A stretch of 64,000 nt of DNA from Acidobacteriota bacterium (lineage in GTDB: Bacteria; Acidobacteriota; Terriglobia; Acidiferrales; UBA7541): positions 1 to 64,000 of the forward strand of contig JAKASX010000003.1 of the NCBI GenBank assembly GCA_021818865.1, given 5' to 3'. The translations under genes and the position numbers were made by a program. Under the pieces are notes generated by a model. The model was not told where the DNA came from, did no database searches, and saw only the letters and a program-made list of their open reading frames with translations. Shown here piece after piece: positions 1,472-5,363 of the stretch (its first letter is position 1; every line of letters begins with the position of its first letter).

Positions 1472-2218
1472 TCAGAGATCGGTGCCGCTGCGGCCAGCCA
1501 TATCGCGCGGATGGAAGCGGAAATCGAGCCTGGTTTTTTTCAGCCGGCAGACGAGATCGACCTCATTTTCGCTCGGGCCGATCATCGGCTGGCCATTGGC
1601 GGCGGTTCTGGCGAAATGGAAAGTGACGCCGAGCACCTGCTTACCGTTCAGCGAGCGGTAAATGTTGACGCTTGATGGCTCGAGTTCTTTCTTTGCTGAC
1701 CTGAGATGGAGATAGGAGTCCTTGGTCAGTTCAGCCGGTGTGAGATCGGCGAAGGGGGTCATGTCGGACCCGAGAACCATGATCTCGTAATCGGAGGGCT
1801 GCTTGGCGACGTCGCTGTCGGCTCGCGCTTCGGGAATTTCACCCGCCAGAACCTGGCGGCGAGCAACTGCTTCGCGGATGGTCTTGGCGGAAATCCAGCG
1901 AGCCACGAACGTGGCATGCGGCTCTTGCGGGCGCATACCGAGCGATGGAGAGCCTCCACCCGGCCCACCCCCAGCGTCCACAGAGGCCGAACCGCCGAGG
2001 GATGCTGCCGCGGCTGGGGAGTTATACATGGGTAGGGGGTGCCAGCTTACCGGCACGGTGAATGACTGCACCCAAGGCGAATGTTCGAGGACCTGCATGA
2101 CGTCATTTTTATTCCATTGCTGGTAGGGTTTGGTTTTCCAAGGAGTGCCGGCCCAGGCGATTGCCGCCAGCGTACCGGCGAACATCAGTGCGGCCAAAAT
2201 CCTGGAGAGAGAGCGCAT
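1472..2218 (-). CDS. Secreted protein of the PYQQW/HSPWVQ family, tandem copy A
   Basis: A 248-residue secreted protein of unknown function, most similar to the two genes upstream of it on the same strand. The start at 2218 is preferred because GGAGG lies about nine bases upstream and a signal peptide (MRSLSRILAALMFAGTLAA) begins there; the open frame extends further but lacks these signs. The mature N-terminus carries KPYQQW and LEHSPWVQ. A Gly/Ala/Pro-rich low-complexity linker follows, then FVARWISAKTIREAVAR and SDYEIMVLG. The end is FRFHPRDMAGRSGTDL, whose last residues are shared by copies B and C. I recognise this as a lineage-specific secreted family but know no biochemical role; periplasmic or outer-membrane location is inferred. 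Confidence 0.8.
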   Translation of the reverse strand: MRSLSRILAALMFAGTLAAIAWAGTPWKTKPYQQWNKNDVMQVLEHSPWVQSFTVPVSWHPLPMYNSPAAAASLGGSASVDAGGGPGGGSPSLGMRPQEPHATFVARWISAKTIREAVARRQVLAGEIPEARADSDVAKQPSDYEIMVLGSDMTPFADLTPAELTKDSYLHLRSAKKELEPSSVNIYRSLNGKQVLGVTFHFARTAANGQPMIGPSENEVDLVCRLKKTRLDFRFHPRDMAGRSGTDL

Positions 2219-2308
2219 ACCCGACACCTCCACGGTTCGCTTGCCGCGCCGGCTGCCGGTTATTCGCGACCGCTGCGCCGGAAAAAGCACAGCGATCGCG
2301 AACCTCCA

Positions 2309-3046
2309 TCAGAGGTCGGTGCCGTCGCGGTTGGCCATGTCGCGCGGATGGAAGCGGAAATTGAGCTTGGCGTCCTTCACACGGCAAACGAAATCCACTT
2401 CCTTTTCGTTGGAGCCAATCATCGGCTCGCCATTGGCGGCCGTTTTGGGGAATTGAAAGGTGATGCCGAGGACCTGGTTGCCGTCGGGCGTGCGGTGAAT
2501 TTCGACGCTGGAGGGTTCGAGCTTTTTCTTGGCGCCCTTGATGTCGAGGTAGGAGTCATTGGTCAGTTCGGCGGCAGTGAGGTGGACGAACGGCGTCATA
2601 TCGGGGCCGATGAGGAGGATTTCATAGTCGGTCTGTTTCTGGGCGAGATCGGTAGTGGCCTGCGCCTGGGTGATCTGACCGGCCAGGATTTCGCCGCGAG
2701 CCATCGCTTCGCGGACGGTTTCGGCGGAAATCCAGCGTGCTTGGAATTTGACGTGGGCCTCGTGCGGCTGCATGCCGAGTCCGGCGGCGCCGCCCATGGG
2801 CCCTCCGCCGACCATCATCGGCGAACCGCCGTTGGTGGTTTCGCCAGGATTCAACATGGAGGACGTTTTCCAGTTCGCTGCCACGCTGACCGACTGCACC
2901 CACGGCGAATGTTCGAGAACCTGCTGGACGTCCTTCTGACTCCACTGCTGGTAAGGTTTTGAATCCCAGGGATTGCTGGCCCAGGCGATTGCCGCCAGCG
3001 CCCCAAGAGAAAGCAAAATCGTGGAAATTCTGGAGAAATGGCGCAT
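2309..3046 (-). CDS. Secreted protein of the PYQQW/HSPWVQ family, tandem copy B
   Basis: Second tandem paralogue, 245 residues. Two ATGs are adjacent (3049 and 3046); AAGGAGG lies two bases before the first and five before the second, so 3046 is preferred. Signal peptide MRHFSRISTILLSLGALAAI, then KPYQQW, VLEHSPWVQ, a Met/Gly-rich linker (MMVGGGPMGG), ARWISAETVREAMARGE, TDYEILLIGPDM, and the C-terminal signature FRFHPRDMANRDGTDL. It is closest to copy A in its C-terminal half. The gap to copy A is about 90 bases with its own good ribosome binding site, so the copies may be co-transcribed but are initiated independently. Function unknown. Confidence 0.8.
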   Translation of the reverse strand: MRHFSRISTILLSLGALAAIAWASNPWDSKPYQQWSQKDVQQVLEHSPWVQSVSVAANWKTSSMLNPGETTNGGSPMMVGGGPMGGAAGLGMQPHEAHVKFQARWISAETVREAMARGEILAGQITQAQATTDLAQKQTDYEILLIGPDMTPFVHLTAAELTNDSYLDIKGAKKKLEPSSVEIHRTPDGNQVLGITFQFPKTAANGEPMIGSNEKEVDFVCRVKDAKLNFRFHPRDMANRDGTDL

Positions 3047-3278
3047 CATGGCCTCCTTGGCGCTTTTCCCACCTACGCCTGCCGGAAATTTCGCGCGAAC
3101 ACCCCAATGCCCCCACATGCCCCATGGCCAAACGGCCTGTGCCCTTCGCCCGCCCGTCGGTGAAGCGCAGGTGCGGGGCAGGGAACAGGTCCCTGCCCGT
3201 TGGCCCATCAAACCATACTTATCAGATTTCGCAGCATTCCCACAACCCCCGACCTGAGGTGCAGCGGCGGCGCAAGCG

Positions 3279-4049
3279 TCAGAGGTCGGGACCCTGCTTG
3301 GTGGTCATTTTGCGCGGGTCGAAATGAAATTGGAGAGTTCTCCTTTTCGTTTTGCAAGCGAATTCGATCTGTTTTTCCTTCGGACCGATCACCGGCTTGC
3401 CGTTGACCGTGCGCGGGAAATCGAACTCCACGGAAGTCACCGTCTTGCCATCGGGCGACCGCCCGATGGTGACCTTGTCAGGCGCCACTTTCATCCTGGA
3501 TTCCTTGGCGTCGAGAAAGCTGGCCTTGGCCAGTTCCGCTTCCTGCTCGTGGACGAAGAGGGACATATCCGGCCCGACGACGGCAATTTCGTAATCGGCG
3601 GGCGTTTCCGCCAGATAGTGTTCCACGGCGGCTTGCGATACCTTGCCTTGCAATTCGGAAATCCGGGCGATTGCCTGCCGCATGGTCAGCGCGGAAACCC
3701 ACCGCGCCTCGAAAAAGGTCTCCGGCGCGGCCTGCACGGGCCCGCCGCCCATGCCGGGCTGTCCCCCGCCCATGCCGGACTGTCCACCACCCATGCCGGG
3801 ACGGCCGGAGGCGGTGGTTTGACCGGTCGGCGCACCCATGGGCTGGCCGCCCATGGAGGGCGCACTCAAATCCATATCCGACCCGATGGGCACGTGGACG
3901 ATCTGAACCCAGGGAGAATGATTCAGAATCTGATTGATGTCCTTTTGGTCCCACTGCTGATACGGCTTTGATTTCCAGGGATCACTTGCCCAGGCCAACG
4001 CCGCCAGCGCCAGGATGGCAAGTGATACCTTCACGAATCTCGTCATCAT
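3279..4049 (-). CDS. Secreted protein of the PYQQW/HSPWVQ family, tandem copy C, with GMGGGQ repeats
   Basis: Third and most divergent paralogue, 256 residues. Signal peptide MMTRFVKVSLAILALAALAWA is followed by KPYQQWDQKD, LNHSPWVQI, and a linker with three near-identical GMGGGQ/P units around residues 84-104. Then FEARWVSALTMRQAIAR, ADYEIAVVGPDM and the end FHFDPRKMTTKQGPDL, where copies A and B have RDM and GTDL. GAGGAG lies about nine bases before the start. The linker is the most variable part of the family and probably a flexible spacer; conserved blocks at both ends imply one ancestral fold. It lies directly downstream of the selenoprotein gene on the same strand, with a gap of about 18 bases. 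Confidence 0.8.
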   Translation of the reverse strand: MMTRFVKVSLAILALAALAWASDPWKSKPYQQWDQKDINQILNHSPWVQIVHVPIGSDMDLSAPSMGGQPMGAPTGQTTASGRPGMGGGQSGMGGGQPGMGGGPVQAAPETFFEARWVSALTMRQAIARISELQGKVSQAAVEHYLAETPADYEIAVVGPDMSLFVHEQEAELAKASFLDAKESRMKVAPDKVTIGRSPDGKTVTSVEFDFPRTVNGKPVIGPKEKQIEFACKTKRRTLQFHFDPRKMTTKQGPDL

Positions 4050-4067: not shown

Positions 4068-4349
4068 CTACGTTTCTTCCCGCAGACCCTCATCGTAGGC
4101 CACGGGATCGAATCCCAAAATCACTCGTCTCCCGACGCGCAATGTCGGCGTCTGGCGGCTGCCCAGTTCCTCGACCAGTTCGAAAAGAGCCTGGTAGTCG
4201 CCGCGAACATCCTTCTCCTCAAAGAGCACTCCGCGGGCCGAAAGAAACTCTTTCGCGTGTTTGCAAGGCGGTCAGCCGGGCTGGGTGTAAAGGACCACCC
4301 TGCGCGTCGCGCCATTCGCCGGATTGGATTTTTTCTCGTACGGATTCAT
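4068..4349 (-). CDS. Glutaredoxin/NrdH-like selenoprotein, in-frame TGA read as Sec (UPPC)
   Basis: Not visible to a plain ORF search. Reading from ATG at 4349 to TAG at 4068-4070 gives 93 codons with one internal TGA at 4274-4272 (codon 26). Around it the protein reads VVLYTQPG-TGA-PPCKHAKEFL, exactly where glutaredoxins have C-P-P-C; the second Cys (residue 29) is intact. Downstream family features are all present: LFEEKDV (~42-48), the cis-proline QTPTLRVG (~66-73) and GFDP (~79-82). Continued similarity after the TGA shows the frame is maintained. A six-pair hairpin with loop AGUUU starts 17 bases after the TGA, with its loop 22 bases after it, as expected of a bacterial SECIS. Predicted role: cytosolic thiol/selenol reductase. 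It starts 15 bases after the GT2 stop. Alternatives are a Cys-to-stop mutation or a sequencing error. Confidence 0.8.
4239..4255 (-). promoter_or_regulatory. Candidate bacterial SECIS hairpin
   Basis: In the transcript, CGAAAG and CUUUCG form six consecutive pairs around the five-base loop AGUUU. The loop begins 22 nucleotides after the UGA and has G at its second position. Published descriptions of bacterial SECIS elements place the apical loop about 16-37 nucleotides downstream with a G among its first two bases, so the geometry fits. The hairpin lies inside the coding sequence, as bacterial elements must. Confidence 0.65.
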
Positions 4350-4364
4350 TTTGAGCGAAATCTC

Positions 4365-5363
4365 CTAGCGGTGTGCGTTGGTGAATTGAGAGCTGCCCAG
4401 CGTGGATTCCACCCGGTACACCGGCTGGCGGTGCGCGTCGAAATAGGTTCTCGTCATCAGCTCGCCGAGCAGGCCGATCGCCAGCAACTGGACGCCAAAC
4501 ACCACCAGGATCATACCCAAGAGCAGCATCGGCCCGTGTTTCAGGAACAGGTGCGAACCGTGCAAGATTTTATCGAACAGAAGCCAGGTCAATATGCTCC
4601 CGCCGAGGAACAGGCCGCCCAGACCGGCGGGCCCGAAGAAATGGAGCGGGCGAGTCATGTAGCGGATCAGGAAGCGAATGGTGATCAGGTCGAAAAAGAC
4701 GCGGGTGGTGCGGGAGATGCCGTAGTGGGATTTGCCCTGGGGCCGTTCGATATTGCGGATGGGCACCTCGATCACCTTCGCGCCGTTCCAGGATGCGAGC
4801 GCGGGGATGAAGCGGTGCAGCTCGCCGTAGAGGGCGATCTCCTTGATGATTTCCCGGCGGTAGACCTTGAAGGTGGTGCCGAAATCGTGGATGTTGACGC
4901 CGGAAAGTTTGGCCATCATCCAGTTGGCGGTGCGCGAGGGCAGGCGGCGGAGCCAGAAATTGTCCACGCGCTTTTTGCGCCAGCCGCTCACCAGGTCGCA
5001 GCCGGTCGCTTCCATCGCGTCGAGCATCGCGGGGATATCGGAGGGATCGTGCTGCAGGTCGCCATCCATCGCGATGATGATTTGCCCCTGCGCCAGATCG
5101 AAGCCGGCGGCGAGGGCAGCGGTCTGACCGTAATTGCGTTTCAGGCGAATGGCGTGGACGCGGGGATCAGCATCGGCGATGCGAGCGAGGATTTCCGGGG
5201 TTCGGTCGGTCGAATGGTCGTCGACGAAGACGAATTCCACGGGCTGGTAGCGGCCGTTCATCATGTCGGCCAGGCGCGCGTAGAGTTCGGCCGCGCTCTC
5301 TTCCTCATTGTGGAAGGGAACGACAACCGAATATTTCGGTTCGGCGCCGCTGGGTTCAAACAT
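4365..5363 (-). CDS. Family 2 polyprenyl-phosphate glycosyltransferase (ArnC/DPM1-like)
   Basis: 332 residues. The GT-A domain shows VVVPFHNEEE (~14-22), VDDHSTDRT (~47-54) and the metal-binding DGDLQHD (~99-105). Two C-terminal transmembrane helices follow (~236-258 and ~270-295), the layout of ArnC and dolichyl/undecaprenyl-phosphate sugar transferases. Expected reaction: transfer of a sugar from a nucleotide donor to undecaprenyl phosphate at the inner face of the membrane. It overlaps the upstream deacetylase gene by 8 bases, implying translational coupling, and is followed by the Sec-glutaredoxin gene. With the ChbG-type deacetylase and the GT39 enzyme it forms the same trio as FlmF2-NaxD-FlmK or LgmA-C-B, which add hexosamine to lipid A. 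The sugar is inferred to be an N-acetylhexosamine. Confidence 0.88.
   Translation of the reverse strand: MFEPSGAEPKYSVVVPFHNEEESAAELYARLADMMNGRYQPVEFVFVDDHSTDRTPEILARIADADPRVHAIRLKRNYGQTAALAAGFDLAQGQIIIAMDGDLQHDPSDIPAMLDAMEATGCDLVSGWRKKRVDNFWLRRLPSRTANWMMAKLSGVNIHDFGTTFKVYRREIIKEIALYGELHRFIPALASWNGAKVIEVPIRNIERPQGKSHYGISRTTRVFFDLITIRFLIRYMTRPLHFFGPAGLGGLFLGGSILTWLLFDKILHGSHLFLKHGPMLLLGMILVVFGVQLLAIGLLGELMTRTYFDAHRQPVYRVESTLGSSQFTNAHR

Follow-up and report, generated by a model that had tools for sequence, protein, structure and literature searches.

Reading frame and gene neighbourhood

The window, a stretch of 64,000 nucleotides, is part of contig C58 of an acidobacterial draft genome of 3.97 Mb (95% complete, 165 contigs). 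Its minus strand contains a frame of 93 codons for a glutaredoxin-domain protein (4068-4349), with a single in-frame TGA and the stop codon TAG. This arrangement, with the TGA at the first cysteine of a CPPC motif, had been put forward in the original prediction and was confirmed by translation of the window. With TGA taken as selenocysteine (Sec), the product is MNPYEKKSNPANGATRRVVLYTQPG-U-PPCKHAKEFLS...TPTL...GFDP...EET. The following features were annotated:

4071..4349, minus strand: predicted coding sequence of a Sec-containing glutaredoxin-like protein of 93 residues (reading frame, Pfam match, dN/dS, predicted glutaredoxin fold)
4068-4070, minus strand: stop codon TAG (sequence)
4272..4274, minus strand: TGA codon 26, predicted to be read as selenocysteine, position 1 of UPPC (TGA or Cys codon in 86 of 86 tabulated rows)
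4239..4255, minus strand: SECIS-like hairpin CGAAAG-AGUUU-CUUUCG, loop 22 nt past the UGA (paired in 8 of 8 Sec forms of the same order, with compensatory changes)
4362..4366, minus strand: AGGAG, possible ribosome-binding site, 12 nt 5' of the ATG, a somewhat long spacing (sequence only)
4365..5363, minus strand: upstream gene, family 2 glycosyltransferase (PF00535 at 2.5e-37)
3279..4049, minus strand: gene located downstream, the first in a tandem of three paralogues with apparently secreted products (no Pfam match; relatives beside the Sec gene in other genomes)

The gene is located 15 nt behind the glycosyltransferase gene and 18 nt ahead of the next gene, all on the same strand, and because of this tight spacing it looks like a member of an operon. 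The glycosyltransferase neighbour is 95% and 79% identical in L023/L026 and L024/L027. The other two tandem paralogues are encoded at 2309-3211 and 1472-2290. No Pfam match was obtained for the tandem secreted proteins (1472-4049), which share the pattern WxxKPYQQW...HSPWVQ...FHPRDM. Their relatives adjoin the Sec gene in L023, L024 and L026-L030, of which L028-L030 belong to other genera. In the genus of the window, the gene is found among glycosyl-transfer and sugar-related genes (PMT_2, YdjC, GT2) together with genes of the tandem secreted proteins, and this neighbourhood hints at an envelope-tied role.

In comparisons with two relatives, the dN/dS ratio past the TGA was 0.17 and 0.14 (about 0.15). 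Judging by these low values, the part past the TGA is translated and under purifying selection.

Selenocysteine machinery and the state of codon 26

The original prediction required that the machinery of Sec synthesis and insertion be encoded elsewhere in the genome, and all of its components were found there, namely, tRNA-Sec, the selC product (67.4 bits; SeC with anticodon tca according to ARAGORN), SelA (569 bits), SelB (378 bits) and SelD (140 bits), the gene of the latter being interrupted by a contig end and therefore partial. SelD (L018:2-340, contig C116 of genome G000) has an in-frame TGA of its own, in the motif AAGUAAKLSP, and is thus likely to be a second selenoprotein of this genome.

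Among the 86 tabulated rows, codon 26 is TGA in 58 and a Cys codon in 28, with nothing else at this position, although the tabulating motif itself admitted only C or a stop there. Only three rows were missed by the motif, all with D before the site and all from genomes with tRNA-Sec; one of them has TGA and two have Cys. Weaker Cys matches are represented by a sample only, and three of the TGA rows (L132-L134) are UXX-star paralogues. Accordingly, the in-frame UGA is aligned with the redox cysteine of the homologues, as the proposed homologue check had anticipated.

In the order of the window, eight Sec rows, including the window itself, have TGA at exactly codon 26, and members of other genera and families across the phylum likewise keep TGA there. 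Only two close relatives were recovered by a single-protein scan of the genome contigs, while whole-genome searches gave more; a profile search of the sister order detected family members or close paralogues in 90 of its 397 genomes, and the phylum was also searched. Plasmids yielded only distant Cys glutaredoxins. L033 and L034, also from the order of the window, have Cys (TGC or TGT) at the site; tRNA-Sec was not detected in their genomes, and SelB over the cut-off was absent both from these genomes and from three better-sequenced congeners, while 80 of the 95 genomes of the order have SelB. The protein tree requires five Sec/Cys changes.

tRNA-Sec over the cut-off was found in the genomes of 49 of the 58 Sec rows; each of the remaining nine, all drafts, has SelB, in seven cases over the cut-off and in two as a fragment. 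Conversely, 17 of the 28 Cys rows are from genomes without detected tRNA-Sec, and for 16 of these rows the genome is also without SelB over the cut-off, the exception being G765. The 16 rows include two of the window's own order and those from the single-contig genomes G505, G528, G531 and G559. The other 11 Cys rows are from genomes possessing tRNA-Sec. Fisher's test of Sec against machinery gave p = 3e-8, a descriptive value that overstates independence, since the rows are related to one another and two of the genomes enter twice; moreover, SelB was searched in part of the genomes. On this comparison, the Sec/Cys state appears to be tied to the machinery by a link that is strong but, because of the eleven Cys rows with tRNA-Sec, not absolute. 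These rows, L074, L107, L112, L119, L135-L138 and L140-L142, represent a Sec/Cys difference without machinery loss.

Hairpin registers and the reading of the UGA

The hairpin described originally, with 6 bp and the loop AGUUU, is present, and its geometry had been given correctly. The stem is formed by C20-G25 and C31-G36 (numbered from the T of TGA); 16 nt separate the UGA from the stem, and 22 nt separate it from the loop. The published model of the bacterial SECIS includes a stem of 4-16 bp, a loop of 3-9 nt with G in its first two positions, located 16-37 nt after the UGA, and a minimum free energy of at most -7.5 (PMC13188914). The window's hairpin fits this model, as had been claimed. 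Its energy is -7.9 kcal/mol when 40 nt are folded and -11.6 with 47 nt, which leaves little margin, as the bare hairpin of 23 nt gives only -6.6 kcal/mol against the limit of -7.5. The folding energy by itself is not above chance (z = 0.05, 95 of 200 shuffles as stable), and Rfam matched nothing in the window or in the local segment. Since the energy of the single sequence falls within the shuffles, it was dropped as proof, and covariation was used.

In the Sec forms of the window's order (n = 8), stem columns 20-25/31-36 are paired in 48 of 48 cells. Three of the pairs show double changes, such as A-U to G-C at 23-33 and G-C to A-U at 21-35. Covariation is 0.399, compared with 0.221 for shuffles, of which 0 of 500 attained the observed value; slid registers are paired to at most 71%, and the loop AGUUU is retained in all eight forms. 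In the sister order, this first-register stem was found in none of the 46 distinct sequences. Another stem, columns 30-35/39-44 with the loop GGA, GGC or GGG, is fully paired there in 43 of the 46, its loop lying 32 nt past the UGA; double changes occur at four pairs (26 cells), the adjoining pair 29-45 included. Neither stem is whole in any Cys form (0 of 28).

The proposed mechanism is as follows. The mRNA hairpin just past the UGA, a bacterial SECIS, would recruit SelB with Sec-tRNA-Sec, and the ribosome would decode the UGA of codon 26 as selenocysteine, made by SelA and SelD. In the protein, Sec26 would attack and Cys29 would resolve, with cis-Pro68 adjacent. The machinery of the genome and the TGA or Cys codons of the homologues support the Sec reading of the original prediction; we infer, with a probability of about 95%, that this gene encodes a true selenoprotein and that its UGA codon 26 is read as selenocysteine by means of the hairpin.

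Several other explanations were weighed. The assembly behind the window is a draft in 165 contigs, and the TGA might be an artefact of assembly or sequencing, or the gene might be a pseudogene in which a Cys codon has recently mutated to a stop; however, the same TGA in independently assembled relatives (74-86% identity within the genus, about 55% outside) makes a sequencing error very unlikely, and with the dN/dS of 0.14-0.17 past the TGA and the retention of the hairpin in TGA forms only, the probability of this explanation is negligible. UGA is reassigned in some bacteria, and here ordinary near-cognate suppression could account for its read-through, or Trp or Cys could be inserted in place of Sec. 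Such a reading is highly improbable given the complete Sec machinery, the interchange of TGA with Cys codons, the presence of tRNA-Sec or SelB sequence in the genomes of 58 of 58 TGA rows, and the covarying stem. The conserved TGA, the selection past it and the machinery thus led us to reject a sequencing error, a pseudogene and ordinary read-through alike.

A separate explanation concerns the hairpin, which could be a by-product of the conserved peptide KEFLS, Sec being inserted via another structure. The stem does lie over the conserved codons AAA-GAG-TTT-CTT-TCG, and its folding energy does not exceed that of shuffles, but L031 and L032 alter both sides of the stem, in part synonymously, the stem is lost in Cys homologues of similar peptide, and the sister order has another stem with covariation of its own. 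This explanation is accordingly very unlikely.

Acidobacterial UXX-star paralogues with the motif SQPGUxFC have a hairpin with the loop AGUUU or AGUAU, mostly in the first register, across the phylum, which suggests that the first register is probably ancestral. UXX-star-like Sec paralogues, mostly SQPGUxFC, with the first-register hairpin are L035-L040, L042, L046, L047, L049, L050, L132-L134 and L143. Genome G657 carries both types, namely, the second-register UPPC gene L128 and the first-register UXX-star gene L143. We lean towards a shift of the SECIS by 10 nt within one acidobacterial family of Sec-glutaredoxins, the loop lying 22 nt past the UGA in the window's order and 32 nt past it in the sister order, and each register covarying in its own right. 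The two branches are likely, though not proven, to be orthologous, since the tree is based on 77 columns and the UXX-star paralogues are not firmly placed in it. Two SECIS registers in one family are the least expected and most novel detail, and the shift, if true, is a natural experiment on SECIS relocation, along with repeated Sec/Cys exchange linked to machinery loss.

Protein family and comparison with known selenoproteins

The Pfam domain Glutaredoxin (PF00462) matched over its full length when C was put for U (8.7e-13, 48.7 bits vs. the gathering cut-off of 22.9), running across the position of the TGA. The protein has the other attributes of glutaredoxins, namely, Cx2C/Ux2C, TP with the cis-Pro, GFD and the predicted beta-alpha-beta-alpha-beta-beta-alpha fold. 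The AlphaFold2 model (three-sequence input, mean pLDDT 76) has the glutaredoxin order of strands and helices and places residue 26 immediately before the first active-site helix. The top PDB matches are BC3987 and dithiol cGrx1 (7c10), the latter ranking among the best by both sequence and fold. cGrx1 is the characterised clostridial Sec-glutaredoxin. Of the original label "glutaredoxin/NrdH-like", the first part holds, while the NrdH part needs correction, as the NrdH model (38 bits) is more distant than those of YruB-family glutaredoxin (71.1 bits) and Uxx-star (47.7 bits). The product would be a small, probably cytosolic thiol oxidoreductase of the glutaredoxin/UXX-star type, and the anatomy of its active site suggests a dithiol glutaredoxin, with Sec as the attacking and Cys29 as the resolving residue.

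Acidobacteriota are common soil bacteria, in which the family represents an additional selenoprotein branch and natural evidence of UGA recoding. None of the tested members reaches the NCBIfam cut-off of any matching model, and gene callers are therefore likely to truncate or skip the branch. The 86 natural variants comprise Sec and Cys forms, genomes that have the machinery and genomes that do not, and both hairpin registers; with this set one can test directly how the hairpin is recognised by SelB and which factors drive the exchange of Sec and Cys.

Sec-containing glutaredoxins have been listed for Geobacter, Moorella, Alkaliphilus and Sargasso Sea sequences (PMC1794560, PMC1088965, PMC13188914). 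The acidobacterial branch has in common with Sec-containing glutaredoxins (PF00462, UxxC) the UxxC active site, the glutaredoxin domain and the downstream SECIS-like hairpin, but differs by the motif UP[PA]C and the signature SRxTPT/GFDP. Members of the UXX-star family (NF041212, NF041114, NF041211, NF047338) are likewise small, glutaredoxin-like and of one domain, with Sec in the first position of the active site, whereas all tested members of the window's family score under the cut-offs, for example, 47.7 vs. 66 bits for NF041212 (46-58 bits in relatives); the scanned UXX-star-like paralogue L035 is also below the NCBIfam cut-offs. YruB-family glutaredoxin (TIGR02196) is the best-scoring NCBIfam model for the tested members (66-85 bits), yet all are below its cut-off, the window protein with 71 vs. 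88.55 bits. Accordingly, the gene is known in kind, Sec-glutaredoxins and UXX-star proteins being listed in reviews, and it is a new member within this kind, the novelty being the UP[PA]C branch of Acidobacteriota under the tested NCBIfam cut-offs.
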